This document shows, piece after piece, positions 3,971 through 57,100 of a stretch of DNA of 64,000 nt (the first letter of the stretch is position 1; each line of letters begins with the position of its first letter). Under the pieces are notes generated by a model. That model worked only from the letters and a program-made list of their open reading frames with translations, did not search any database and was not told the DNA's origin. Source of the DNA: Gemmatimonadaceae bacterium (GTDB lineage: Bacteria > Gemmatimonadota > Gemmatimonadetes > Gemmatimonadales > Gemmatimonadaceae); assembly GCA_020851035.1 (NCBI GenBank), contig JADZDM010000021.1, forward strand, positions 248,001-312,000. The letters run 5' to 3'. A program made the position numbers and the translations under genes.

Positions 3971-5623
3971 ATGCGACCCACCCCCCATCGCGCAGTTGCG
4001 CGCGCCGCGGCGGCACTCCTGTGCGCGCTCGCCTTCACGCGCTGTTCCCCGTCCGGCGAGACCTCGTCGGCGTCGCGCAACAGCGTGATCACGATCGCCA
4101 CCGCCGTCGATGCCGACGCGCTCATCCCCCCGCTGGTCGGCAGCACCCAGGGCAAGCAGGCGGTGGACATGCTGTTCGACTTCCTGGCCGAGGCGAAGAC
4201 CCCGATCGTCACCATCGGCGACGCCGGCTTCGGGCCGCAGCTCGCCTCCCGGTGGACCTGGGCCCCCGACTCGCTCTCGATCGCCTTCAGCATCGACCCG
4301 CGCGCCCGCTGGCACGACGGGACCCCGGTCCGGGCGAAGGACGTCGCGTTCTCGTTCGCCCTCTTCACCGACCCGGTCGTCGCGTCCATGCACGCCGGCA
4401 ACTTCACCGGCATCGACTCGGTCACGGTGCGCGACTCGCTCACCGCCGTGGTCTGGTGGCATGCGCGGCACCCGGAGCAGTTCTTCCAGGTCGCGTACAA
4501 CCTCGCCATCATGCCGGAGCACCTGCTGGGCACGGTGCCGCGCGATTCGCTGCTGCGCTCCCCCTTCGCCGACCACCCGGTCGGGTCGGGGCGCTATCGC
4601 TTCACCTCGTGGACGCGCCAGGGCACGCTGATGTTCGAGGCCGACACTGCCAACTACCGTGGCGCGCCGGCCGCCTCCCGCCTGATCTGGGTGGTGGCCG
4701 CAGACCCCACCGCGGCCAGCCTCAGCGTGCTCGCGGGGCAGGCCGACGTGCTGGAGTCGGTGCGCGGGGACGCGTACACACAGGTCCGGAAGTCCACCAC
4801 GGCGCGTGCCGTGGAGTACGAGTCGCTGGACTACGCCTACATGCTCCTGAACCACGAGCGGACGGTGGCCGGCGCGCGGCGGCTCTTCGCCGACCGTGCC
4901 CTGCGCGTCGCGCTCACGCAGGCGGTGGACCGCGCAGCGATCGTCGCCAACGCCCTCGATTCGCTCGGCCGCGTGGCGCTCGGCCCGTTCACCCGGGCCA
5001 CCGATGGCGTGGACACCACGATGCGCCAGATCGCCCTCGACACCGCCGCCGCCGGCCGCGCACTCGATGCGCTGGGCTGGACACGCGCCACCGGTGACTC
5101 CCTGCGGCGCCGGGCCGGTCGGCCGCTGCAATTCACGCTGATGGTGCCGGCCGCCAGCACCACCCGCAAGCGTGTGGCCGTGCTGCTCCAGGCCCAGTTC
5201 CGCGCACTCGGCATTGCCGTGGAGGTGGACGCGGTGGAGGCGCAGGTCTACGCCGCGCGGCTGGGGAAGGGTGACTTCGACGCCGCCCTCAACGCCTGGC
5301 GCACCGACCCGAGCCCGGCGACCATCCGCCAGGTCTGGGCCACCGCGCGCGGCAGCGACGTGCAGGCCAACTACGGCCGCTACTCCAACCCGCGCTTCGA
5401 CGCCGCCACGGACAGCGCCGCTACGACCTTCGATCCGGCCCGGCGGCGCGCCCTCTACCGGCGCGCCTACCAGGACATCGTGGATGATGCGGCGGCGATC
5501 TGGCTCTACGAGCCGCGCAACTTTGCCGCCATCAGCACCCGCGTGACACCGGTCGGGATGCGTGCCGACGCGTGGTGGGCGGCGCTCCCGCGCTGGCAGG
5601 TGTCCGGGGCCGGCGCGCGCTGA
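3971..5623 (+). CDS. ABC transporter substrate-binding protein, peptide/nickel (SBP_bac_5) type
   Basis: 550 residues, the usual length for DppA/OppA-type proteins. The N-terminus is an export signal ending FTRC-SPSGE: a possible lipoprotein site, although Arg at -1 departs from the lipobox consensus. SBP_bac_5 features include FDFLAEAK near the start, WHDGTPVRAKDVAFSF, and VEYESLDYAYMLLN followed by LRVALTQAVDRAAIV. It would bind peptides or similar solutes in the periplasm and deliver them to the two permeases encoded immediately downstream (9-nt gap). No clear Shine-Dalgarno sequence precedes the ATG. Confidence 0.9.
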   Translation: MRPTPHRAVARAAAALLCALAFTRCSPSGETSSASRNSVITIATAVDADALIPPLVGSTQGKQAVDMLFDFLAEAKTPIVTIGDAGFGPQLASRWTWAPDSLSIAFSIDPRARWHDGTPVRAKDVAFSFALFTDPVVASMHAGNFTGIDSVTVRDSLTAVVWWHARHPEQFFQVAYNLAIMPEHLLGTVPRDSLLRSPFADHPVGSGRYRFTSWTRQGTLMFEADTANYRGAPAASRLIWVVAADPTAASLSVLAGQADVLESVRGDAYTQVRKSTTARAVEYESLDYAYMLLNHERTVAGARRLFADRALRVALTQAVDRAAIVANALDSLGRVALGPFTRATDGVDTTMRQIALDTAAAGRALDALGWTRATGDSLRRRAGRPLQFTLMVPAASTTRKRVAVLLQAQFRALGIAVEVDAVEAQVYAARLGKGDFDAALNAWRTDPSPATIRQVWATARGSDVQANYGRYSNPRFDAATDSAATTFDPARRRALYRRAYQDIVDDAAAIWLYEPRNFAAISTRVTPVGMRADAWWAALPRWQVSGAGAR

Positions 5624-5632
5624 CGCGCGGCG

Positions 5633-6619
5633 ATGGCCACCTTCCTCGTACGCCGGCTGCTGCACGCCGTGGCGGTGATGGTCGTCGCGGTCACGCTCGG
5701 CTTCGCGCTGGTGCACCTCGCCCCCGGCGACGCGCTGACGGGGGACGTCACGCAGGCCGGTCGCAGCGCCGAGGCGCAGGCACGCCTGCGCGCCCGTGCA
5801 GGGCTCGACCAGCCGCTGCCGACGCAGTACCGGCGCTTCGTCGGCGCCGCGCTGCGCGGTGACCTCGGCCACTCGCTCATCACCGACCAGCCGGTCGTGC
5901 GCATCCTCGGCGGCGCACTCCGCAACAGCCTCACCCTCGCCGGCTGCGGGCTGCTCGCCGCCGTGGCACTCGGGCTGGTGATCGGCAGTGCACAGGGATG
6001 GCGCCCGCGGCAGCGCACGTTCCGGCTGCTGGGCCGCGCGCTGACGGCGCTCTACGCCGTGCCGGAGTTCGTGCTCGCCATCTCGCTCATCGGGCTGCTC
6101 GCCTACGGCGCACGGTGGTTCCCGGTGGGCGGCATGCACGATCCCGTCACGCACCTCGTCGGCACGCCGGCCGAGCGGCTCGCCGATGCGCTGCGCCACC
6201 TCGTGCTGCCCACGCTGACGCTCGCCCTGGGCTGGGGCGCCGCAGTGGCCCGGCAGCAGCGGGTGGCCGTGGGCGAGTGCGCCGGCCAGGACTTCATCCG
6301 CACCGCCCGCGCCAAGGGACGCAGCGACGTCGCGGTGCTCACGCGCCACGCCCTGCCCACCACGGTGGCGCCGTTCGTGACCGTGATCGGGCTGATGCTG
6401 CCGGCGATGGTGGGCGGGTCGGTGATCGTGGAGGTGGTCTTCGCCTGGCCGGGCCTCGGCGCCGAAGTCGTGCACGCCGTGGCGCAGCGTGACGCGCCCG
6501 TGGTGAGCGGTGCCATCGTCGTCATCTCGCTCCTGGTGGCTGGCAGCAGCCTGCTGATCGACTTCGCCGTGCGCCTGGCCGATCCGCGCCAGCGCACCGC
6601 CGGCGGCAGCGATGCGTGA
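5633..6619 (+). CDS. ABC transporter permease, DppB/OppB type
   Basis: 328 residues with the DppB-type layout: an N-terminal helix (FLVRRLLHAVAVMVVAVTLG), a periplasmic loop, then five membrane helices. The EAA loop that docks the ATPase reads DFIRTARAKGRSDVAVL and is followed by a typical WPGLG segment. It is second gene of the transporter operon and overlaps the next permease gene by 8 nt. It should form the membrane channel as a heterodimer with that protein. Confidence 0.92.
   Translation: MATFLVRRLLHAVAVMVVAVTLGFALVHLAPGDALTGDVTQAGRSAEAQARLRARAGLDQPLPTQYRRFVGAALRGDLGHSLITDQPVVRILGGALRNSLTLAGCGLLAAVALGLVIGSAQGWRPRQRTFRLLGRALTALYAVPEFVLAISLIGLLAYGARWFPVGGMHDPVTHLVGTPAERLADALRHLVLPTLTLALGWGAAVARQQRVAVGECAGQDFIRTARAKGRSDVAVLTRHALPTTVAPFVTVIGLMLPAMVGGSVIVEVVFAWPGLGAEVVHAVAQRDAPVVSGAIVVISLLVAGSSLLIDFAVRLADPRQRTAGGSDA

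Positions 6620-38281: not shown

Positions 38282-38292
<11 letters not shown>
38092..38292 (-). CDS. DUF2892 (YgaP-type transmembrane) small protein
   Basis: 66 residues. It begins MCNDKVIRRFAGTFILLSVA and has two membrane helices (TFILLSVALGWFV and WYGFTAFVGLNLLQSSFTGF), ending with the CPLERMLG motif usual in DUF2892. Family members occur as the membrane half of rhodanese proteins and beside RND pumps. It overlaps the RND pump gene by 11 nt and is last in the efflux operon. The function is unproven. Confidence 0.88.
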
Positions 38293-41460
<3,168 letters not shown>

Positions 41461-41464
<4 letters not shown>

Positions 41465-42576
41465 TTCGCCGCCTGCGGCACGACGATGGTCTCACCGGCC
41501 GTCAGGCCGCTGGTCACCTGCACGAGGTCACCGCGCGCGGTCCCGAGCCGCACCCAGCGCAGCTCGTCGCGCGTGGCACCGCGGACCATCACCCCGGTCA
41601 GGTCCCCGTCACGCACGATCGCGCGCGCCGGCACCAGGAGCCCGCGCTGCTCGGCGCCGGCGATGCGGAGCACGGCGCTGCTGCCGGCACGACGGGTGGC
41701 CGACGGGTTGCCCACCAGCGCGTTCACGCTGAAGAGGTTGCCCACCGATCCCGGCACCACCCCCTCGACGGTGGCACTCACCGGCTCACCGGCGATGGTG
41801 GCGCTGAGCACCTGCCCGCGGCGCACCGTCCGCACCACGTCACCACCGGCACTCGCCGTGATGCGCAGCGACGAGACGTCCTGCACCACCAGCAGCGGTG
41901 CACCCGGTGCCGCGAAGGCGCCGGGATCCGCCATCCGCGACGTGACCACGCCGCCGAACGGCGCCCGCACCGTCGCGTAGCTCCGCATCGCATCCACTTC
42001 CGCCACGCCGCCCTCGGCGGCGCGCACGGCGGCGGCGGCGCGGGCCAGCCCCGTCTGCGACGCATCGAACTGCGCCTGCGTGGCCGCGCTGTCGGCGTAG
42101 AGGGCGCGTATCCGCGCGGCCTGCGTGCCGGCGTCGGCGTGCATCGCGCGCGCATCGGCCAGCGCCGCGGCAGCCTGCGTGGCACGGGCCGAGAGGTCGC
42201 GCGCGTCGATGTCCAGCAGGGCCTGCCCCTGCCGCACCACGTCACCCTCACGCACGTGCACCGCCATGACGGTGCCCATCAGCTTCGAGGAGAGCATGGC
42301 CTGCCGCATCGGCTCGGCCACGCCGGTGAGTTCCACCACGCCGGCGATCATCGTGTCGCGCACGGTGAGCGCCGCGCCGGCCTGGCGCGCCGGCGCAGCG
42401 GCCGCGTCAGGGGCGTGCGCCGTCTCGGGTGCCTTGGAGCAGGCGGCGAGCGTGGTGGCGAGCAGGAGGAGCGTGCCGCCGGTGCGGGCGAAAGCAGTGC
42501 GATGTGTCATCGGGCCGTGGCCGTGGGCAGGGTGAGGTGTGGCGGCGTGTGGGGAGGGCATGGCAGCGGCGCTCAT
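41461..42576 (-). CDS. RND efflux periplasmic adaptor (membrane fusion) subunit
   Basis: 371 residues. A lipoprotein signal (LLLLATTLAAC-SKAP) anchors it. The core shows the barrel-sandwich VREGDVVRQGQALLDIDARD and its return half RAPFGGVVTSRMADPGAF, with a coiled-coil hairpin between (about 115-190, Ala-rich). The start at 42576 overlaps the TolC stop (ATGA), favouring it; an internal ATG at 42510 would give a more usual signal-peptide length and remains possible. Confidence 0.9.
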
Positions 42577-43955
42577 GGGGTGGCGACGAGTGAGGCGAGG
42601 GCGCCGGGATCGGCACCGATGGCAAGGCGGCGTGCCGCGATGGCGTCGATCACCGCGAAGCGCGCGGCGGCGTGGGCGAGCGTGGACTGCGTCGCGCCCG
42701 CGGTGGCGCCGAGCAGCTCCGCCACCGTGGCCAGGCCACCGGCGTAGCGTCGCGCGACCAGTCGCTGCGCCTCGCGCGCCTGCACACCGGCCTGCGCCGC
42801 GAGATCCAGCCGCAGCAGTGCCACCGTCAGCGCACGCTGCGTGGCGTCGGATTCCAGGCGTGCCTGGGCCAGCGCCGCATCACGGCCGGCGGACGCACTG
42901 CGCGAACGCGCGCGTGCCGCCTGCACCTCGGCCAGCTCCCCGCCCATCGACGGCAGCGACCAGGAGGCCATCACGCCGAGGGTCCAGCTGGCCTTGCCGC
43001 CGAACGGCGTGCTCGGCGTGAACCAGTCGGAGCGGGCGAAGCCGTTCAGGCGCGGCAGGAAGGCACTCTGCGCGCGCTGCAGGTCCACCGACGCCGCCTG
43101 CACACCGTCCAGCGCCGCGCGGACGTCGGTGCGCTGCGTCGCGCCGGCGGCGGGCCCCGTGTCGCGGGCAGCGAATGCGCGGAGCGCGCTGTCGGACGGC
43201 AGCGCGCCGGTGATCGCCGGCGCCGCCTGCGTGCTGCGGCCCAGCAACATGCCGAGGGCAGCGCGGGCCGTGACGGCGGCATCCGCGGCCGCGAGGCGCT
43301 GCGCGGTGAGGTCCAGCTCGTGCACCGAGGCCTGCAGTGCATCGGCCTTGGTCACGACGCCCTGGCGCACCATCGACTCCACCTGCTGCGTGGCGGCATG
43401 CGCCGCCTGCTGCGCGGCGTCGAGCGTGCGCACCTTCTCGTCGGCGAGGAGGGCGCCGAACCAGGCGCGCACGACGTCGGCGCGGATGGTGCTGGCGGTC
43501 CACGCGCCACCCGACTCCGTGGCGCTGACGGCGGCGCGGGCCGCGCGCCGGCCGAGCCAGGCGTCGGCGTTGAAGAACGGCATCTCGACCACCAGCGCGC
43601 CCTGCACGGTGCTCACCGGGGCCGGGGCGTTCAGGCGCGCCGGATCAAAGTTCGCAGCGCTGATGCTGCGCTGGCGCAGCGTGGCCCCGAAGGCGCCGAT
43701 GGGGTCGGTGGTGCGCACCAGTCCCGACTCCACGCGCGCGCTGGGCAGGATGCCCTTCAGCGGCAGGCGGGCGCCGGCGCGGCGCTGGTCGGTGGCGGCG
43801 GCGGCGAGGCGGTTGCCGAAGGCGTGCCCGTCGGCCTCCCGCAGCGCATCGGCGAGCGAGAGCGGTGCAACCGGTGCCGTCGGCGCCGCCTGCGCGCGGG
43901 CCAGGCCCGGCAGCGCGACGAGGGCGGCGAGGAGGAGCACGGGTGAGCGAGGCAT
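42573..43955 (-). CDS. TolC family outer membrane efflux protein
   Basis: 460 residues with a signal peptide (RSPVLLLAALVALPGLARAQ). Two internally repeated helical halves match the outer-membrane-factor family; examples are SLADALREADGHAFGNRL and LVVEMPFFNADAWLG in the first half and SAFLPRLNGFARSDWFTPS in the second. It forms the exit duct of the tripartite pump with the following two genes. GGAG is 6 nt upstream of the chosen ATG; longer starts (including GTG at 44030) run into the promoter region. Confidence 0.88.
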   Translation of the reverse strand: MPRSPVLLLAALVALPGLARAQAAPTAPVAPLSLADALREADGHAFGNRLAAAATDQRRAGARLPLKGILPSARVESGLVRTTDPIGAFGATLRQRSISAANFDPARLNAPAPVSTVQGALVVEMPFFNADAWLGRRAARAAVSATESGGAWTASTIRADVVRAWFGALLADEKVRTLDAAQQAAHAATQQVESMVRQGVVTKADALQASVHELDLTAQRLAAADAAVTARAALGMLLGRSTQAAPAITGALPSDSALRAFAARDTGPAAGATQRTDVRAALDGVQAASVDLQRAQSAFLPRLNGFARSDWFTPSTPFGGKASWTLGVMASWSLPSMGGELAEVQAARARSRSASAGRDAALAQARLESDATQRALTVALLRLDLAAQAGVQAREAQRLVARRYAGGLATVAELLGATAGATQSTLAHAAARFAVIDAIAARRLAIGADPGALASLVATP

Positions 43956-44033
43956 TGCGGACTCCGGGGCAGCAGCGAGGGGGTGCATCCGGCGCCACCC
44001 AGGGGCGGCGTCCAGCTCAATTACGTTCACATA

Positions 44034-44062
44034 TACATATAGACGAATATATTGGACGTCAA
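44034..44062 (-). promoter_or_regulatory. predicted promoter of the tolC-RND operon
   Basis: On the minus strand TTGACG (44062-44057) and TATGTA (44039-44034) are separated by 17 bp. They lie in an AT-rich island that stands out sharply from the flanks, about 80 nt upstream of the TolC start. The alternating ATATAC/ATATATT tracts between the boxes could also hold an operator. Divergent from the M20-like gene. Confidence 0.5.
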
Positions 44063-44174: not shown

Positions 44175-45725
44175 ATGCCCACGAACCATGCTGGACCGCA
44201 GGACGATGCGCACGCGGAGGTCACCCGGCGCGATTTCGTCGCCGGAATCCTCGCGAGTGCCGCCGCCATCTCCCTCGGCGCCACCCCCGTCCTCGGCATG
44301 GACGGCCCCGACCAGGACGCCGTCGCCGCCCAGATCCCTCGCCAGCACGACGCGACGGTGAAGATGCTCCAGGACTGGATCGCGCTTCCGGCCATCGCCG
44401 CCGAGAACCGCGGCTATCCGCAGGGCGCCGAGTACATGGCCCAGCTCGCGCGGAACGCGGGGTTCCAGCGCGTCGAGCTCGTGCCGACAGCCGGCAAGCC
44501 CGGCGTGTTCGCCACCTTCGACGTCGGTGCTCCCACCACGCTCGGCGTCTACTTCATGTACGACGTGAAGCAGTACGACCCCGCCGAGTGGAGCTCGCCG
44601 CCGCTGGAGGGACGCCTGGTGGACCGACCCGGCGTGGGGAAGATCTGCGTCGGCCGCGGTGCGACGAACACCAAGGGGCCGCAGACGGCATTCCTCGCCG
44701 CGCTGCATGCGTTCCGTGCGGCCGGAAAGACGCTGCCGGTGAACATCACGCTCGTCTGCGAGGGCGAGGAGGAGATCGGCTCACCGAACTTCCCGCAGGT
44801 GGTGAACCGCCCCGACGTGCTGGCCGCGCTGAAAAAGTGCGTGGGCATCATCATCCCGCTCGGCAGCCAGTCGCTGGATGGCGCAGTGGAGGTGAACCTC
44901 GGCGCGAAGGGGATCGTGGAGCTGGAGCTGGTGTCCACCGGCGAGAAGTGGGGCCGCGGGCCGCGGCTCGACGTGCACTCCAGCCTGAACGCGCAGCTCG
45001 ACAGCCCAGCCTGGCACCTCGTGCAGGCCCTCAACACGCTGGTGCAGGCCGATGGCCACACGCCGGCGGTGGAAGGGTTCTTCGACCGGGTGAAGCCCCT
45101 CACCGCGCCGCAGCGCGCGATCCTCGAGGCCTCGATCCCGAAGAAGAACGAGGCGGGGACCAAGCGGGCCCTCGGCGTGCAGCACTGGTTCGCCGACGAA
45201 TCGTGGCACGATTCGCTGGTGCGCCTCGTCTCGCAGCCCACCATCAACATCGAGGGATTGGTGGCGGGCTACACCGGCCAGGGCGGCAAGACCATCCTGC
45301 CGCACCGCGCCGTCGCGAAGATCGACATGCGGCTGGTGCCGGACATGACGGCCCTCGGCACGCTGGCGCTGGTGAAGGCCCATCTCGCGAAGAAGGGCTT
45401 CGGCGACATCGAGGTGAACATGAGCGGTGGCTACGATCCCACGGAGACCGACCCGGCCTCGAAGCTGGTCCAGGCGCAGCTCGCGACGTACCGGAAGTCC
45501 GGTGTGGATCCGCTGCTCTGGCCGCGCCTCGCCGGCAGCTGGCCTGGCGTGACGTTCACCGGGGCACCGCTGAACCTGCCCGCCGGCCAGTTCGGACTCG
45601 GCCACGGCGCCGGCGCGCATGCCCCGGACGAGTACTGGCTGATCGAGTCGGCCAATCCCAGGGTGGCCGGCATGGATGGCGCCGTGAAGTCGTACGTGGA
45701 CCTGTTCTACGCGCTGGCGTCGTAG
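44175..45725 (+). CDS. Tat-exported M20-family peptidase-like protein with altered metal ligands
   Basis: 516 residues. A twin-arginine signal TRRDFVAGILAS (17-28) ends near VLG. The fold is M20 (carnosinase/CNDP type): ARNAGFQRVELVP, the GRG-x3-KGP region, EGEEEIGS (196-203), a DVHSSLN dimer histidine and a late GAGAHAPDEYW histidine. Compared with active relatives, the first HxD pair is MYD (Met128, Asp130), the bridging Asp in the GRGxxDDKG motif is Asn165-Thr166, and the ISDN aspartate is replaced around IIIPLGS (225-231). Three of five usual ligands are changed, so it may use metal differently or be inactive. GGAG precedes the ATG. Confidence 0.8.
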   Translation: MPTNHAGPQDDAHAEVTRRDFVAGILASAAAISLGATPVLGMDGPDQDAVAAQIPRQHDATVKMLQDWIALPAIAAENRGYPQGAEYMAQLARNAGFQRVELVPTAGKPGVFATFDVGAPTTLGVYFMYDVKQYDPAEWSSPPLEGRLVDRPGVGKICVGRGATNTKGPQTAFLAALHAFRAAGKTLPVNITLVCEGEEEIGSPNFPQVVNRPDVLAALKKCVGIIIPLGSQSLDGAVEVNLGAKGIVELELVSTGEKWGRGPRLDVHSSLNAQLDSPAWHLVQALNTLVQADGHTPAVEGFFDRVKPLTAPQRAILEASIPKKNEAGTKRALGVQHWFADESWHDSLVRLVSQPTINIEGLVAGYTGQGGKTILPHRAVAKIDMRLVPDMTALGTLALVKAHLAKKGFGDIEVNMSGGYDPTETDPASKLVQAQLATYRKSGVDPLLWPRLAGSWPGVTFTGAPLNLPAGQFGLGHGAGAHAPDEYWLIESANPRVAGMDGAVKSYVDLFYALAS

Positions 45726-45801: not shown

Positions 45802-45894
45802 GCCGGTTGCGGGATCCCCGTGAACGGCATTCTGTTTTCCCGGCGAGCCCTGCGCTCTGTCACCACCCCGCCTTCCTCCCCGATCCGACATCGT

Positions 45895-47661
45895 ATGCGT
45901 TCCTCACGAACCCGCCTCGCCACCGCAGCGACGCTCACCCTGCTGCTGGCCTCCGGTGCCTTGGCGCAGGTGCCGCGCACCGGCCGCCAGGCACCGTCAC
46001 GGCGTGCCACTGCGGTGCGTGCGCCATTGCCGCGCACGTACGTCGGCCCAGCCACCGTGCCGGCCATCGTCCCCGGCGACCTGATGACGCGGCTCTACCG
46101 CTTCGCCGATGACAGCATGATGGGTCGCGAGGCCGGGACGGCCTGGAACGACAAGGGCACCGACTTCATCGCGGCCGAGCTGCAGAAGCTGGGCCTGGAG
46201 CCGGCGGGCGAGAACGGCACCTGGTTCCAGTCGGCGCTGATGACGCGTGCGATCGCCGGCACGTCGTGGCTGCGCGTCGGCACGACCATGTACGAACTGT
46301 GGAAGGACTGGGCGCCACGCGACCAGGGTACGGTCGCGCGCCCGCTGGCCGGTGCCCTCGCGATCTATGGCGGCACCTTCGGTGACACGGCGTCGTACCT
46401 CGCCCCGCACCTGGCCGAGGGACGCGTGGTGGTGATGCGCACCGGCCGCGATGCCAGCGGCAAGCCTGGACACCTCCTGATCAACCGCCAGATCCTCACC
46501 CGGCGCTACTTCACCGCCGCCGCCATCGCAGTGGTGAGCATGGATTACGCGCCTCCCGGTTTCGTGGACGCGAATTACCGCGGCTCGCTGGTGATGCCGA
46601 AGGGTGCTCCCGACACCACCCGCGTGCCGTCGTACCTCTACATCAGCACCGGCATGGCCCGCGCGATGCTCGGCGTGGACGTGGACTCCGCGCGCACCGG
46701 CCAGGCCGGCGCGGCGGTGGAGGGCCAGGTGCTGGTGGACATGCAGGATGCGCCGGGCCGCAACGTGATCGCGATCCTGCGCGGGTCGGACCCGGTGCTG
46801 CGCAACGAGTACATCGCGATCGGCGCGCACAACGACCACGTCGGCACCACCGACCAGCCGGTCGACCATGACTCGCTCTACGCGTTCATGCGGATCGCCG
46901 CGCCGCAGGGCGCCGACAACCGCCGGCCCAACCCGACTGCCGCCGACTGGGCCCGCATCAACGCCATGAAGGACTCACTGCGCGCCGTGCGCGGCGCCCG
47001 CCTCGACTCGATCTACAACGGCGCCGATGACGACGGCTCGGGGTCGATGAGCGTGCTGGAGATCGCGGAGCGCTTCGCCACCGCCCCCACGCGCCCGAAG
47101 CGCTCGATCCTGTTCGTCTGGCACGTGGCCGAGGAGATGGGGCTGTTCGGGTCGGCGTACTTCACCGACCATCCCACGGTGCCGCGCGAGTCGATCGTCG
47201 CGCAGCTCAACATGGACATGGTGGGCCGCGGTGGGGCCGGCGACTTCACCGGCGTCACGAAGGCCGGCGAGCCGATCCACGGTGGTCCCGGCTACGTGCA
47301 GCTCGTCGGCGCACGGCGGCTGTCCACGGAGCTCGGGGACATGGTGGAGCGCGTCAACCTTCGCGACCGCCTGGGACTGCGCTTCGACTACAGCATCGAC
47401 GCCGACGGGCACCCGCAGAACATCTACTGCCGCAGCGACCACTACGAGTACGCGCGCTACGGCATCCCGATCGTCTTCTTCACCACCGGCGGCCACGCCG
47501 ACTACCACCAGGTGACCGACGAGCCGCAGTACATCGACTACGACCGCATGACGCAGATCTCGCGCCTCGTCCACGGCACCGCCACGGCGCTCGCGAACCT
47601 GGACCACCGCGTGGTGGTGGACAAGCCGAAGCCGGATCCGCGGGGGCGGTGCGTGCAGTGA
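45895..47661 (+). CDS. secreted M28 family zinc aminopeptidase
   Basis: 588 residues with a signal peptide (MRSSRTRLATAATLTLLLAS...LAQ). A PA-like insert (about 105-260) precedes the M28 domain. All metal ligands are in place: GAHNDHVG, NGADDDGSGS, the catalytic EEMGLFGS, LNMDMVG and the final GGHADYHQ. It should release N-terminal amino acids or act on short peptides outside the cytoplasm. The start was set at the methionine opening the signal peptide. It converges on the serine hydrolase gene. Confidence 0.9.
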   Translation: MRSSRTRLATAATLTLLLASGALAQVPRTGRQAPSRRATAVRAPLPRTYVGPATVPAIVPGDLMTRLYRFADDSMMGREAGTAWNDKGTDFIAAELQKLGLEPAGENGTWFQSALMTRAIAGTSWLRVGTTMYELWKDWAPRDQGTVARPLAGALAIYGGTFGDTASYLAPHLAEGRVVVMRTGRDASGKPGHLLINRQILTRRYFTAAAIAVVSMDYAPPGFVDANYRGSLVMPKGAPDTTRVPSYLYISTGMARAMLGVDVDSARTGQAGAAVEGQVLVDMQDAPGRNVIAILRGSDPVLRNEYIAIGAHNDHVGTTDQPVDHDSLYAFMRIAAPQGADNRRPNPTAADWARINAMKDSLRAVRGARLDSIYNGADDDGSGSMSVLEIAERFATAPTRPKRSILFVWHVAEEMGLFGSAYFTDHPTVPRESIVAQLNMDMVGRGGAGDFTGVTKAGEPIHGGPGYVQLVGARRLSTELGDMVERVNLRDRLGLRFDYSIDADGHPQNIYCRSDHYEYARYGIPIVFFTTGGHADYHQVTDEPQYIDYDRMTQISRLVHGTATALANLDHRVVVDKPKPDPRGRCVQ

Positions 47662-47690: not shown

Positions 47691-49091
47691 TCAGGGCTTG
47701 CGCTTCCCGGTCCAGCCGACGGAGTCAGGACGGCCAAACGTGAGCGCCGCCGCCTTGCCGCCGTCCATGGTGATCGTCAGGCGGACATCCTTGTTGAATG
47801 TCACCGCGAAGGTGTCGTTGCCGAGCGGGATGAGCAACTCCGGGGTCTGGACGTCCATCATGCCGTACAGCTTCCCGTCCTGCACGTAGATCTTGAACAC
47901 GTGCGGGCCGTCGATGGTGACGTCGAACTCGCCGGTGTACGATGCGAGTGCGGCAGCGGTGAGCGTCACGCCGCGGGGCGGCACGTCCAGCGGCAGGCCG
48001 AGCGCGGCGCGCACCAGCTGCTTGGCCAGCGGGTCGGGGTTCCGGAAGTCGCCGTTCGTCAGCACGGTGACCGACAGCTGCGCCTCGGGCACCCACATGT
48101 TGGCGGTGAGCGCACCGGGGATGCCGCCGCTGTGCGAAATCACGCGATGGCCGTCGACCGAATCCACGCCGAGCCCGAAGCCGTAGCCGCGGGGCACGGC
48201 GGAACCGGCGGGCGTCGTCATCGCGGTGTAGCTCGCCGGCGTCACGACCGTGCCCCCATGCAGCGCCCGGTTCCACGTCAGCATGTCGCCAATCGTGGAG
48301 CAGAGCGCGCCGGCCGCGGCCGGCTGCGACATGGCCAGGTAGCGCGCATTGACCCACTCGTCCTTCTCGTTTCGCGAGTACCCCGCCGCACGACCCGCGA
48401 TCAGCGGCTGCACCTCGCAGTAGCGCGTGCGCGTCATGCCGAGCGACGTGAAGAAGCGGCGCGTGAACTCGTCGCCCCAGCCGTGCCCCATGCGCGCCTC
48501 GAGCAGCATGCCGAGCAGCACGTAGCCGGTGTTGTTGTACTTCCACGAGGTGCCCGGCGCGAAGTCGAACGGCTTGTCTGCGGTCAGCGCGACGATGTCG
48601 GCACCCGTCATCTCCTCGCCCCAGCGCTTCATCCACGACTCACCGGCCTCGGTGTAGCTCGGGATGCCGCTGGTGTGGTTGAGCAGCTGCGTGATGGTGA
48701 TCGGTCGCCAGGTGGCCGGCAGGTTCGGCACCCACTGCCCGATGGAATCGGCGAGCGACAGCGTCCCGATCTCCACCAGCTGCATCACGGCCGACGCCGT
48801 GAACTGCTTGGTGACCGACCCGACGCGGAACACCGAGGTCACGGCCACCGGCACGCCGAGTTCCAGGTTCGCGCTGCCGTAGCCGTGGAACAGCAGCGTG
48901 TCGGTGCCGCGCACGATGGCGATCGCCGTGCCTGGCGCATCGTTGTGCGCGATGAAGGCGCGGGCCAGCGAGTCGGCCACGCGGCGCACCTGCGCGGCGG
49001 CGGGCAGGCGCGCGGCCTGTGCCTCGAGCAGCGCGGGGGCGCACAGCGAGAGGGCCAGCAGCGGCGTGCGGAAGGTCGGGCGACGGGTCAT
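47691..49091 (-). CDS. secreted serine hydrolase, class C beta-lactamase/DD-peptidase-like
   Basis: 466 residues with a signal peptide. The beta-lactamase (PF00144) domain has the SxxK nucleophile motif SVTKQF, a YNN (Y-x-N) motif in WKYNNTGY, and the HSGG segment replacing the KTG box (SHSGGIPGAL). A C-terminal beta-barrel-like domain (about 360-466, YTGEFDVTI) resembles DUF3471-type tails. Probably a D-aminopeptidase, esterase or penicillin-binding-like enzyme rather than a resistance lactamase. GGAG lies 6 nt before the ATG. Confidence 0.87.
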   Translation of the reverse strand: MTRRPTFRTPLLALSLCAPALLEAQAARLPAAAQVRRVADSLARAFIAHNDAPGTAIAIVRGTDTLLFHGYGSANLELGVPVAVTSVFRVGSVTKQFTASAVMQLVEIGTLSLADSIGQWVPNLPATWRPITITQLLNHTSGIPSYTEAGESWMKRWGEEMTGADIVALTADKPFDFAPGTSWKYNNTGYVLLGMLLEARMGHGWGDEFTRRFFTSLGMTRTRYCEVQPLIAGRAAGYSRNEKDEWVNARYLAMSQPAAAGALCSTIGDMLTWNRALHGGTVVTPASYTAMTTPAGSAVPRGYGFGLGVDSVDGHRVISHSGGIPGALTANMWVPEAQLSVTVLTNGDFRNPDPLAKQLVRAALGLPLDVPPRGVTLTAAALASYTGEFDVTIDGPHVFKIYVQDGKLYGMMDVQTPELLIPLGNDTFAVTFNKDVRLTITMDGGKAAALTFGRPDSVGWTGKRKP

Positions 49092-49196
49092 GACGGGCTC
49101 CAGGTCGAGGGCGTCCACCGGCGGTACTGAGCTCGGTACGCCCCGGGGAACGGGTGAGTTTCGCGGCATTCCCTTCCCGACGCCACTCGGTACGGC

Positions 49197-50893
49197 TCAG
49201 CCCTGCAGCTGCGCCGCCAGCCCGCTCGTGCGTCGCACCACCTGCGCGGCTGCCGCGCGCACTGCCGCCTCGGTGCCCAGCAGCGTGACGCAGCGCCGCG
49301 CGCGCGTCACGGCGGTGTAGAGCAACTCGCGGCTCATCACCCGGCTTTCGTCCTGCGGCAGCACCACCACCACGTCGTCGAACTCCGAGCCCTGCGACTT
49401 GTGGACGGTCATCGCCCAGGCCGTCTCGACCGACGGCAGGCGCCCCGGCGCGACCTTGCGGATCACGCCATCGATGCCGCGGAAGTGCACGGCCACGTTC
49501 CCGTCCTCCTTCCACGTCACGCCGATGTCGCCGTTGAACACGCGCGTGGCGTAGTCGTTGGCGGTCACCAGCACCGGGCGGCCGTGGTACCACGCCTCGG
49601 TCACCGGGCGACCATGGCGCGCCAGCCATCGCTCCACCGCCACGTTCAGCGCGCGCACCCCCAGGCGCCCCTCGCGCTCCGGCGCGAGCAGGCGGAACGC
49701 CTCCAGCGCATCCAGCGCCGCTTCCACCGTGGTCGCCGCCAGGCAGCGCTCGAGGTGCGGGATCACCGGCGCGATCAGCGCATCGCGCACGCTCGCGGGC
49801 TCGATCAGGTCGACGTCGCCGTGCGCCGCGTCGCGCGCCGCGTGGACCGCCGCACCACCATCACCGTCGAGCAGCGCCGTCGCCATCGCGCCGATTCCCG
49901 CCTGCGACGCGAACCGCCAGCTGGTGGTGAGGCGCGTCACGGCATCGTGCAGCGGGGCACCGGGCCCCGCCTCCTCCGCCGCACGACAGAGCACGCCAAG
50001 CACATCGCCCGCCTCGACACTCGAGAGCTGGTGATGGTCGCCCACCAGCATCAGTCGCGCCCCGGGACGCAGCGCGTTCAGCAGCGCGTCGAGCATCAGC
50101 ACGTCCACCATGCTCGCCTCGTCCACGACCACGAGGTCGTGCTCCAGCGGCTCGGCGGCGTTGCGACGGAAGGTGTCACTGTCGCCGCTGTAGCGCAGCA
50201 ACCGGTGCAGCGTGCTGGCCTCGAGGCCCCCCAGCGCGCGCAGCACGGCGTCGTCGGCCTGCAGCGCTGCGCCAGCGGCGGCGACCTGCAGGCGGATCGA
50301 CTCGGTGAGTCGCGCGGCCGCCTTGCCGGTGGGAGCGGCGAGGGCCACGCGCACGCCCGGCCGCTGCTGCACCATCGCCACCAGAGTCCGCGCGACCTGC
50401 GTCGTCTTGCCGGTGCCGGGACCGCCGGTGATGATCGAAAACGCAGGCACCCCGTCCACCAGCGGTTCACGCAGCAGCCGCACGATCGCGCCGCCGATCC
50501 GCTGCTCGGCGGCGTAGTAGCGATGCAACTGCAGCAGGGCGCCGTGCAGCACCAGCGGCGCGCGGGTGGTGCCATCGCCGACCAGCGGCGACGCGCCGAG
50601 CTGTGCGCGCCACCACGACTCGTCGCGCAGCGGCAGCGCGGCCAGCCCCGCATGACCAGCCGCCCCCTGCAGGTCGCCCGCCTGTCGCGCGAGCTGCGGC
50701 AGCGTGATCGCGCTGTGCCCGTCGCGCAGCGCGCGGCTCACCAGCAGCGCCGCCAGCAGGATCGCGACCCCGCGCTCACCCGACTCGGCACCACGCCGCA
50801 CCAGCGTGCCGGCCAGCTGCGCATCCGCCGGGTCCACGTCGGGCAGCTCGCGCAGCAGCACCAGCGCGTCGGGCACGGTCACCGTCTCGTCAC

Positions 50894-50897
<4 letters not shown>
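49197..50897 (-). CDS. recD: exodeoxyribonuclease V alpha subunit
   Basis: 566 residues, 5'-3' helicase of RecBCD. Motifs in order: Walker A GGPGTGKTT (about 159-167), APTGKAAARL, VVDEASMVDVLML (Walker B), GDHHQLSSVEAGDV, the late AMTVHKSQGSEFD and LLYTAVTRAR. The length fits RecD. ATG overlaps the RecB stop, so recD is last in the recC-recB-recD operon. It unwinds duplex DNA from the 5' strand during double-strand-break repair and phage defence. Confidence 0.95.
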
Positions 50898-54165
<3,268 letters not shown>

Positions 54166-54169
<4 letters not shown>

Positions 54170-57100
54170 GCCACGCCTCCCGGGAGGCGCGGTCCGAACA
54201 GCGTCGTCACCAGGTGCTCGAACTCGTGCCAGCGCTCGTCCAGCGGATCTTCGCCGCGGAAGCACAGGTCCACGTGCACGTCGGCACTGTCGCCCGGCAG
54301 GCTGTACTCGTCATTGCGCGAGTACGCGGCCACCGCATCCTCGCGCGCGTTGCGCTCGGTGCGCCGCTTCGGGTTGGCGTTGTTGACGTACGCCGCCAGC
54401 CACGCCGCTCCGGCGTTCGGAAAGAACGGCAGCGGAAACTCGCGCCCCTGCCGCGCACACTCCACCAGCTCGGCCAGCAACGCCGTGGCCTCCGGGACCG
54501 CGGCGAAGCGCTCGAACTCGCACCCCTTCTTCTTCTCCACGCCGAGCAGCACCGTCTCCTGCGGGATCGCGCCGCCGACCCCCTGCTCGGCAGCGGCGCA
54601 CATCACGATGTGCTCGATCCACGCGCGGATCTCGTGCTTCGCGCGGAACTCGCCGGCACGCAGCAGGTACCGCACGTCGCCGCGCACACCGTCCAGCGTG
54701 CCGCTCACCCGCCAGTCAGCATACGCCACCGACACCGGCATCACCTGCACCGGGTAGCCCACCGGCAGCATCGCCAGCACCTCCTGCACCGGCTCATGCA
54801 ACGCCGCGCCCCACGCCGTGCCGAGCGCGCCGGGTGGCAGTCCACCGGCAGCCTGCAGCAGGCGGATGTGCTGGTCGGCGTCCGCCTCGTCAGAGAGCGC
54901 CACCTTCAGCATGTCCGATCGGATCGTGCCCTGCTCCATCCGGTCCGGCATCAGCATCTCGTCGTCACCGGTCTCGTCGCCGTCGTCGGCGCCGATGGTG
55001 AACCCCAGCGCATGCCGGCAGAAGTAGCGCGACGGATCGCACCAGCATTCCGCCAGGTCACGGATCGACAGCTCGAAGGTCGCGGTCGCGGCCGGCGGCG
55101 GCATCACGATCGGCGCCGTCACGAACTTCGGCTCGGTCTGGCGCTCCTGGCGGCTGGCCTGCGCGCTGCGGGCGTGCGCCGTGGAGAAGGTGAAGAGTCG
55201 CGGATCGCGCCCCGCCTCGAAGTAGCGGTGCGAGAACGGCTGCAGCGGATGCTCCACGCGCACCACCTGCCGCGCGGCACCACCCGAGCGCCGGTCGAGG
55301 TGGTCGAGCAGTTCGTCCAGCACCACCGACGACGCAGACGGGGTGTTGTCGCTCACCGCCCGCCCCGTGTATGACAGGATCATCCGGTCCTGGGTCGCCA
55401 GCAGCAGGTCCAGGAAGAGCTGGCGATCGTCGCTGCGCAGGTCGCGGTCGCCGGCGCGATGCTCGTGCTCCAGCATGTCGAAGGCCGTGCGACGCTCGCG
55501 GCGCGGAAAGATGCCCTCGTCCAGCCCCAGCACCGCGATCACGCGGAACGGCAGGCTGCGCATCGGCTTGAGCGCAGCCACCGTCATGCCGCCGGTCAGG
55601 AAGCCGCTGCCAAAGCCATCGCCCTCGAGCTCCTGCTGCAACCAGTCGCGCACCACGCCGAACGGCACCACGTCGTCGTAGCTCGCACCGTCCGTCACCT
55701 GGTCCAGGCGCAGCAGCAGCGACAGCACCGACGCGATGGCCTGCGGGTCATCCTCGGCGGCTGGGCCCATCGTGAACGCCACCGCCTCGCGCATCGCCTC
55801 GACCCACGCCGCCACCGGCCGCGACGCGTTCCACCCGTCGAGCATCAGGGCCAGTCGGTCGATCCACGCGGCCAGCCGCGCCACGGCACCGGCATCACCC
55901 GCCGTGTCCCCCGCCGACGGCAGCACGCCAAGCACCAGGTCGTCCACCTGGCCCATGGCCATGCCCAGCACGAGTCGGTCGAGCGACGCGCGCCAGGTGG
56001 CCTCGTCGTACGCCGGCAAGCCGACTGACGTGCGCGCCGTGGCGTCGTAGCCCCAGCGCACGTTCGCGCGCGACGTGAGCGTGCGCAGCGCATCCACCTG
56101 CGCCTCGGTCAGTCCCGCCGACTCGTGCACCAATGCACGCGACAGCAGCTCGAACACCTCGGTGTGCCCGAACCGCGACCCCTGCAGCTCGAGCAGCATC
56201 CCCAGCGCCTCGGCCGCAGGGTCCTCACCGCGCGCCGGGCGATCGGCGATCCGGTACGGAATGCGCGGGACATCCGCATCCGTCACGCCGAACACCGCAT
56301 CCACCAGCGGTGCCCACAGTGCCGCATCGGGCACCAGCAGCAGCAGGTCGTGCGGCCGCAGGGTCGGGTCGGCCGCGAGGGCATCGAGGAGCTGGTCACG
56401 CACGATCTCGAGCTGCCGCACCTCGCCATGCGCGCTGTGGATGCGCAGCGACGGGTCGTCGGCACGCAGCACCAGCGGCGCCGTGCCATCCCCGCCGCCG
56501 GCGAGCTCCCACTGCAACCGGCCGAGCAGCCCCATGGTGTCGGGACTCGCGTCGGGCAGCGCCACGTGCGTCGCGCCACGCTCGCGCAGCATCCCCACGA
56601 ACTCGCGGCCCTGCATGCCGAGTGACGTGGCCACCGGGTGCGGGGTATCGGGAGTGAGCGATGCGGAGCAGATCGTGACCGGCACGTGCTCGGCGAGCGT
56701 GGCCAACAGCTCGAGTAAGATCGGCGGCAGCGTGCTCACGCCGAACACCGTCACGCGACGGATCCCGCGCGGTCCACCGGCCTCCAGCCGGCGCAGCGCC
56801 TCGTGCAGGCGCGCACCGGCGTGCCGGGCACCCTCGCCCGCATCCCGGCAGAGCGTGCGCCAGAGTGCGGCCTGCCAGGCGGCGTGCGCCGTGAAGGGGG
56901 TGTCGTCGCCCGATTCCCACGCCGCCAGCAGGTCGGCGCGATAGAGCTGGTAGTCGTCGAAGCGACCGGCGATGCGCTCGGCCAGCCCGAATCGCGCCCG
57001 GTCGTCGCTCCCGCGCAGGTACGCCTGCAACGGGGCGAACACCGCATCGTCGGGGAGCTCGCGCAGCGCGGCATCGATGCGCCAGGTCATCACGTCGCGC

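Follow-up and report, generated by a model that had tools for sequence, protein, structure and literature searches.

A Met/Asn clade of M20-fold proteins with an apparently dismantled second metal site

INTRODUCTION

One paper on M20 (and M28) metallopeptidases holds that their metal ligands are strictly conserved across all classified members (PMC4012986). In the carnosinase CN2 (carnosine dipeptidase 2; PMC6271292), metal 1 is bound by His445, Asp132, and Glu167 and touches the backbone carbonyl of the inhibitor; metal 2, coordinated by Asp132, His99, and Asp195, contacts the hydroxyl and the N-terminal amine of bestatin. A description of human glutaminyl cyclase, which is of the M28 type, places one zinc on Asp159, Glu202, and His330 and leaves the second site empty (PMC11312887), and GPAA1, which has Pro in place of the site-1 His, is argued in PMC7522609 to be a single-zinc protein. 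In di-zinc DapE, second-metal occupancy is given as 50 to 85% in most structures (PMC11270798), and the second zinc of DapE and ArgE sits on the triad equivalent to the site that is kept in the protein described here (PMC4012986 and PMC4320195).

Our literature search, which took in a minority of subscription papers, returned no report of M20 members without these ligands. The main text of a review of inactive metallopeptidase homologs does not contain the term "M20" (PMC11266112), and passages on M20 members in a fungal degradome paper mention no such ligand loss (PMC11241649). A sequence-only reading of a 64,000-nucleotide stretch of Gemmatimonadaceae DNA (the whole stretch, referred to here as the window) had pointed to an M20 homolog missing three canonical metal ligands, either a new activity or a pseudoenzyme. 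Here we compare this protein with its relatives and with the systems above.

RESULTS

The gene (P0001; Table 1) is one uninterrupted frame from ATG 44175 to the stop codon at 45723-45725. There is an in-frame TTG upstream of this ATG, at 44052, but the twin-Arg motif comes after the ATG. A Pfam scan of the protein to E 1 returned only Peptidase_M20 (PF01546; 47.3 bits, cutoff 24.6), M20_dimer (PF07687; 30.1 bits, cutoff 21), and TAT_signal (13.9 bits, under its cutoff of 22.7). The protein is therefore an M20 family member by profile score, and the same scan gave no M28 match. Scores for the NCBIfam models of dipeptidase PRK08201 (182.6 bits, cutoff 441) and subfamily PRK06446 (215.6 bits, cutoff 369) fall below threshold.

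Table 1 Features of the window and coordinates of three plasmid-borne relatives (positions are those of the window unless a plasmid is named)
Feature	Position	Strand	Codons, evidence, or remarks
AcrB-, HlyD-, and OEP-type efflux gene cluster (AcrA/AcrB/TolC-type)	38282-44030	-	Divergent from the M20 gene
M20-fold protein gene (P0001), family A of the Met/Asn clade	44175..45725	+	516 aa
Arg18-Arg19 of Tat-type export signal (TRRDFV)	44226..44231	+	Sequence
Met128, replacing HxD His (CN2 His99, metal-2 ligand)	44556-44558	+	ATG; alignment
Asp130, HxD Asp, kept	44562..44564	+	106 of 106 covered relatives; all groups
Asn165-Thr166, replacing metal-bridging Asp and next Asp (CN2 Asp132-Asp133)	44667..44672	+	AAC (44667-44669), ACC
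Glu199-Glu200, catalytic Glu and metal-1 ligand (CN2 Glu166, Glu167), kept	44769-44774	+	GAG-GAG
Pro228-Leu229...Gln232, loop that in canonical enzymes supplies the acid of metal 2 (CN2 Asp195)	44856..44870	+	Pro228-Leu229, CCG-CTC (44856-44861)
GEKWGRGP insert, residues 256-263, marker of the wider clade	44940..44963	+	
His268, dimer His, kept	44976-44978	+	CAC
Arg386, pocket Arg (RLVP motif), kept	45330..45332	+	107 of 107 covered relatives; all groups
His482, C-terminal metal-1 ligand (CN2 His445), kept	45618-45620	+	CAT
Following gene, M28 peptidase	45820..47661	+	Pfam Peptidase_M28, 124 bits; neighbor only
Beta-lactamase-family gene, then RecD-like and UvrD-like helicase genes	47691-54265	-	
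L206 relative	4977-6458		Haloarchaeal plasmid
L207 relative	4983-6470		Haloarchaeal plasmid
L208 relative	4974-6437		Bosea plasmid; HxD His present, Ala for bridging Asp, broken Glu pair

In alignments to solved M20 proteins (Sso-CP2 4mmo, 2pok, DUG1, and CN1), the HxD His falls opposite Met128 and the bridging Asp opposite Asn165, and no shifted ligand turns up close by; together with the codons, these alignments bear out the earlier assignment of Met128 and of Asn165-Thr166 to these sites. The acid of the ISD loop aligns either to Pro228 (Glu in 4mmo and 2pok) or to Leu229 (Asp in canonical relatives). This part of the alignment is slightly ambiguous, and neither Pro228 nor Leu229 is a predicted ligand in the window protein. 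Two of the five CN2 metal ligands (His99, Asp132, Glu167, Asp195, and His445) are kept. The Glu pair, the dimer His, and the C-terminal His had also been listed as retained, and codons and relatives alike agree (Glu199-Glu200, His268, and His482). Judged from these alignments, the loss is orderly: the ligands private to metal 2 are gone, the shared bridge is now Asn, and both ligands private to metal 1 are kept.

The collection scan retained the 80 best-scoring of at least 593 relatives, and its patterns were taken from the query, so this set is biased toward it. An intact protein row was recovered at 79 of these 80 loci (L035 is split across two frames), and every family row among the best 80 of at least 593 has Met, Asn, and Pro at the three sites. 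The only exceptions in the alignment table, L002 and L003, are canonical paralogs from the window's own genome and served as its comparison pair. That genome has 30 PF01546 loci; a regular expression for the canonical motif matched two loci and that of the window gene (L171), proved too strict, and was left unused.

Profile searches gave a sample with less bias; they covered 60 relatives, 200 genomes of the phylum, 8 genomes reached via the loci, and the genomes surrounding a Caulobacter (249), an acidobacterium (199), and a verrucomicrobial genome (96). Scores in the search of 60 relatives fell in three steps (at least 609 bits, about 440 to 520, and at most 185). Pooling all distinct rows at least 55% identical to the query, a threshold chosen once the gap was apparent (the following row has 44%), gave 108 family A relatives, with the window protein excluded and copies identical over the last 400 residues merged. 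Within family A, Met128 is present in 106 of 106 covered relatives, and Asn165, the catalytic Glu199, Glu200, Pro228, and Gln232 are each present in 107 of 107; the dimer His268 and His482 are found in all 108. Homologs sharing the replacements, for which the sequence-only reading had called, are thus the rule at this level of identity, and the normal residues that might have overturned it occur in no close relative (His128, 0 of 106; Asp165, 0 of 107). The single open frame and the identical residues across more than 100 distinct relatives already refute decay, an assembly error, or a miscalled frame, a reading for which we found no supporting point and to which we assign practically no weight.

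Two positions next to the fixed sites vary in family A. Position 166 is Gln (83), Thr (16), or Ser (8), and position 229 is free across the 107 covered rows (Ser 28, Glu 23, Leu 21, Ala 13, Phe 7, Met 5, Asp 4, and others, including Thr, Tyr, and Gly). The claimed absence of the ISDN-type Asp therefore stands for the window protein, with its Pro228-Leu229, and does not extend to the whole family, in which 27 of 107 rows have an acid at 229. Those rows would suit an ordinary M20 di-metal hydrolase with an unusual metal preference, its second metal held by Met128, Asn165, and sometimes an acid at 229; Met and Asn are both able to coordinate metals. Such a site is improbable in our judgment, since the window protein has Leu at position 229, most rows have a nonacidic residue there, and Pro228, which stands opposite the Glu of Sso-CP2, is invariant.

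Three sister groups, B (9 rows), C (2 rows), and D (10 rows), are 31 to 44% identical to the query and carry the same pattern. Met occupies position 128 in 9 of 9, 2 of 2, and 9 of 10 rows, respectively (one group D row has Gln); Asn occupies position 165 in 8 of 8 readable rows, 2 of 2, and 10 of 10; and both Glu residues are kept in every row (9 of 9, 2 of 2, and 10 of 10). The group B row L187 has Met in the alignment, but letters near the sites are unread (X). In the same order, 8 of 9, 2 of 2, and 10 of 10 rows retain the C-terminal His, the group B exception (L130) having an odd C terminus. Across groups A to D, Gln232 is present in 46 of 49 rows and Pro169 in 49 of 49. By comparison, the three sites read His, Asp, and Asp in ten canonical rows. 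All ten also have gaps at Gly256, Trp259, and Gly260, where 45 to 48 of the 49 A-to-D rows have residues; the GxxWGxGP insert recurs in group E and in L204, L206, and L207, and the part absent from the canonical rows is 256-260. Neighboring pairs of group D proteins, possibly heterodimers, were seen in three genomes: L188/L201 (G584:C70), L199/L202 (G663:C44), and L193/L200 (G533:C8).

More distant relatives depart further. In group E (L194, L195, and L196), position 128 is Asn, the bridge position is mixed, Gln replaces Glu200, and Phe or Tyr replaces His482. Group F (L197 and L198) has His at HxD and Asn at the bridge position but lacks the Glu199/Glu200 pair. L206 and L207, from haloarchaeal plasmids (Natronosalvus and Natrialba), have Met for the HxD His and Lys for the bridging Asp and lack the C-terminal His. 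L204 has the full Met/Asn/Glu-Glu/His pattern and is the only one of the plasmid-record relatives L204 and L206 to L208 with both Met and Asn.

These further losses bear on the main rival explanation, a pseudoenzyme, that is, a metal-free M20-fold protein that binds peptides or amides for scavenging, sensing, or presenting and does not turn them over. Three of the five CN2 metal-binding residues are replaced in the window protein; group E and L206 to L208 lose remaining ligands too and keep the dimer His and the Arg; and several related lineages lie near ABC transporter genes. Pure binding, however, would need none of Glu199, Glu200, and His482, which are invariant in groups A to D except in L130, and the Pro228/Gln232 loop is fixed along with Met/Asn, as in a working site. 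We regard a pseudoenzyme as a serious possibility.

In a tree built without the ten ligand columns, groups A to E lie on one side of a branch that separates them from the canonical rows and group F (support, 99/96). A second tree included plasmid-record rows and retained 12 of the first tree's 28 family A rows; L209, L210, and L212, which are canonical, were used as the outgroup. In this tree, the wider clade of groups A to E plus L204, L206, L207, and L208 has support of 100/99. Support for groups A to D as a clade is 46/11 in the first tree and 96/94 in the second, with more rows. L204 groups with E (100/99) despite its Met/Asn pattern, and a clade of groups A to D plus L204 alone was rejected (p-AU, 0.0025), so that Met/Asn either was ancestral to the wider clade or arose repeatedly. 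The simplest reading looks to be an ancestral Met/Asn pair that changed later in group E and L206 to L208, with multiple origins as the alternative; the His of L208 may have been retained or regained, and the deep branching order is unsure because of the long branches of L208 and group E. Overall, we take the window protein to belong to an old, maintained clade of M20-fold proteins whose metal-2 site was apparently dismantled early, a real departure from the canonical M20 pattern.

In the collection scan (80 relatives retained of at least 593), the record titles of family A members name Gemmatimonadetes, Acidobacteria, Proteobacteria, and Verrucomicrobia. Within the phylum of the window's genome, 27 of 200 genomes, the window's own included, have a match at E 1e-70 (19 in family A and 8 in sister groups). 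With the central genome counted in each set, matches were found in 4 of 249 genomes around the Caulobacter, in 2 of 96 around the verrucomicrobial genome, and, at E 1e-60, in 25 of 199 around the acidobacterium (12 in family A, 2 in group B, 6 in group D, 3 in group E, and 2 in group F). Plasmid records yielded one family A member, L205 (NZ_CP007130.1), on the 1.04-Mb plasmid 2 of Gemmatirosa kalamazoonensis KBS708, as well as L204, a less closely related Met/Asn protein from Bacillota, on a Cytobacillus plasmid. The family profile found no relative on viral contigs. The L056 and L066 stretches each hold two different family A copies, which are side by side in L066.

With genes called by longest open reading frame and then by codon usage, no conserved operon for family A was apparent in 80 loci. 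The commonest neighbor cluster, present at 7 of 80 loci, begins like an acyl-CoA ligase by eye, and an M28-like neighbor cluster, also identified by eye, is present at 3 of 80 (the best 80 of at least 593). The plasmid-borne relatives have distinct surroundings: L204 lies downstream of two M14 or aspartoacylase-type genes and upstream of an oligopeptide ABC transporter, L208 shares a 4-base overlap with the end of a preceding ABC transporter permease operon, L207 lies between an ABC transporter and an agmatinase-family gene, and L206 is preceded by an M32 carboxypeptidase gene and an aminotransferase gene. PADLOC gave no match, and no tRNAs were found in the window.

Twin Arg residues are present in most relatives. 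The expression RRx[FL] matched at 58 of the 80 loci retained by the collection scan, the wrong stretch having been scanned in many of the other 22; by eye, about nine have Sec-like leaders and no Tat-like motif (L052, L053, L058, L060, L062, L068, L072, L082, and L084). Leaders in groups B and D are of the lipoprotein or Sec-like type, and the Bacillus-group relative L204 has no visible signal. The idea that the Tat signal hints at a bound cofactor is accordingly weak, and we set it aside. A further reading is a soft-metal (e.g., copper) site around Met128 and His482 in an exported protein. The envelope is the workplace of copper proteins, Met128 is fixed, and the window protein has a Tat-type export signal. 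The invariant residues include no Cys, however, leaving only Met128, His268, and His482 from which to build a site, L204 has no visible export signal, and Tat is not general; we consider a soft-metal site very unlikely.

An AlphaFold2 model built from 56 sequences has a mean pLDDT of 88.2 and a pTM of 0.85, with the ten-residue blocks that contain the site residues at about 83 to 96 pLDDT. The best VIA matches of this model are 4mmo (Z, 39.7; 432 residues; root mean square deviation, 2.7) and CN2 2zof (Z, 36.6), with which Foldseek agrees. The predicted fold thus comprises both the catalytic and the dimerization (lid) domains, matches to 4mmo and 2zof spanning 432 to 450 residues. Glutaminyl cyclase is not among the 50 VIA rows listed, which says nothing about the fold. 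A profile search found no solved structure inside the clade, its best match being 4mmo (242 bits).

DISCUSSION

The Met/Asn clade is a clear exception to the statement that metal ligands are strictly conserved across classified M20 metallopeptidases (PMC4012986), and it is, by our literature search, an unstudied branch of the family. One annotated Met/Asn record is labeled simply M20 metallo-hydrolase; for many genes, the peptidase activity predicted from such plain annotation may be incorrect or only partly right. In addition, the clade supplies a ready-made series, from canonical enzymes through one dismantled site to two, for probing the role of each metal in a dinuclear peptidase.

Whether such a protein has a new activity or is a pseudoenzyme was the right question, given the fixed replacements and the invariant rest of the pocket; the description "three ligands missing" gave way to a more orderly loss. 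We tentatively favor, with a probability of about 0.45, an exported enzyme, dimeric, that holds a single metal or none and uses Glu199 as its base. In this proposal, the metal-2 site (His, bridging Asp, and Asp/Glu) would have been dismantled early in the clade; the ligands of metal 1 (Glu200 and His482) are kept, as are the catalytic Glu199, the dimer His268, and, in the pocket, Arg386 and Ser455. The exported homodimer would bind at most one metal, at Asn165-Glu200-His482, and this metal, or the metal-free site, would polarize an amide carbonyl held by Arg386, Ser455, and His268 of the partner subunit, residues whose substrate-binding roles we presume from CN2 and DapE; Glu199 would act as the general base. 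Because the metal that holds a free N-terminal amine in CN2 would be gone, the substrate should be an amide whose amine is blocked or otherwise held (an N-acyl amino acid, an internal amide, or a cyclic peptide) rather than a free dipeptide.

Several observations support the one-metal reading: fixation in 108 relatives, sister groups with the Met/Asn pair, the clade itself, the fold, and the precedent of glutaminyl cyclase and GPAA1 in the related family M28. The neighbors of L204, which include M14 peptidase-like genes and an ABC transporter for oligopeptides, fit the catabolism of peptide-like compounds. Other observations argue against it. The kept site is the weaker, lower-occupancy one in DapE and ArgE, and Asn is a poorer ligand than Asp. 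Group E, L206/L207, and L208 have lost more ligands, so that some members cannot use the kept site at all; the acid at 229 in a minority of family rows suggests that metal-2 chemistry is not fully erased everywhere; and family A has no conserved gene partner.

Comparison with the known systems places the window protein nearest to Sso-CP2 (4mmo), a PRK06446-like M20 dipeptidase-carboxypeptidase and its best sequence match (170.9 bits with the single sequence and 242 with the profile). The two share the domain order, the Glu pair, the dimer His, and the C-terminal His. Unlike the window protein, Sso-CP2 has the canonical His and Asp, places a Glu opposite Pro228, and is gapped at the GxxWGxGP insert. 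A more distant structural match of the model is 5-nitroanthranilate aminohydrolase (5k8m-5k8p), with an M20-like fold at a Z of about 27.9, whose chemistry is other than peptide hydrolysis. With CN2 (2zof), the window protein shares the predicted fold, the catalytic Glu, and the metal-1 Glu and His; CN2 has all five ligands, and its metal 2 holds the free amine of bestatin, whereas the ligands private to that metal are absent here. DapE and ArgE are M20 enzymes that have also been seen with a single zinc, yet they keep all of their ligands.

Glutaminyl cyclase and GPAA1 would resemble the window protein in placing one metal at the metal-1-equivalent Asp/Glu/His triad and leaving metal 2 unused, and GPAA1 has likewise lost the first His. 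In the window protein, the Glu and His of this triad are kept and the Asp is Asn. Glutaminyl cyclase belongs to a different peptidase family, and the human enzyme keeps its metal-2 residues as well as the triad Asp that is Asn here. By analogy, the Met/Asn clade could be the M20 counterpart of these proteins, a one-metal type that evolved independently within M20 by removal of the amine-binding metal; we think this unlikely. Were it true, an amine rather than water would attack the carbonyl, and the reaction would be a cyclization, a transamidation, or peptide-bond formation in the envelope.
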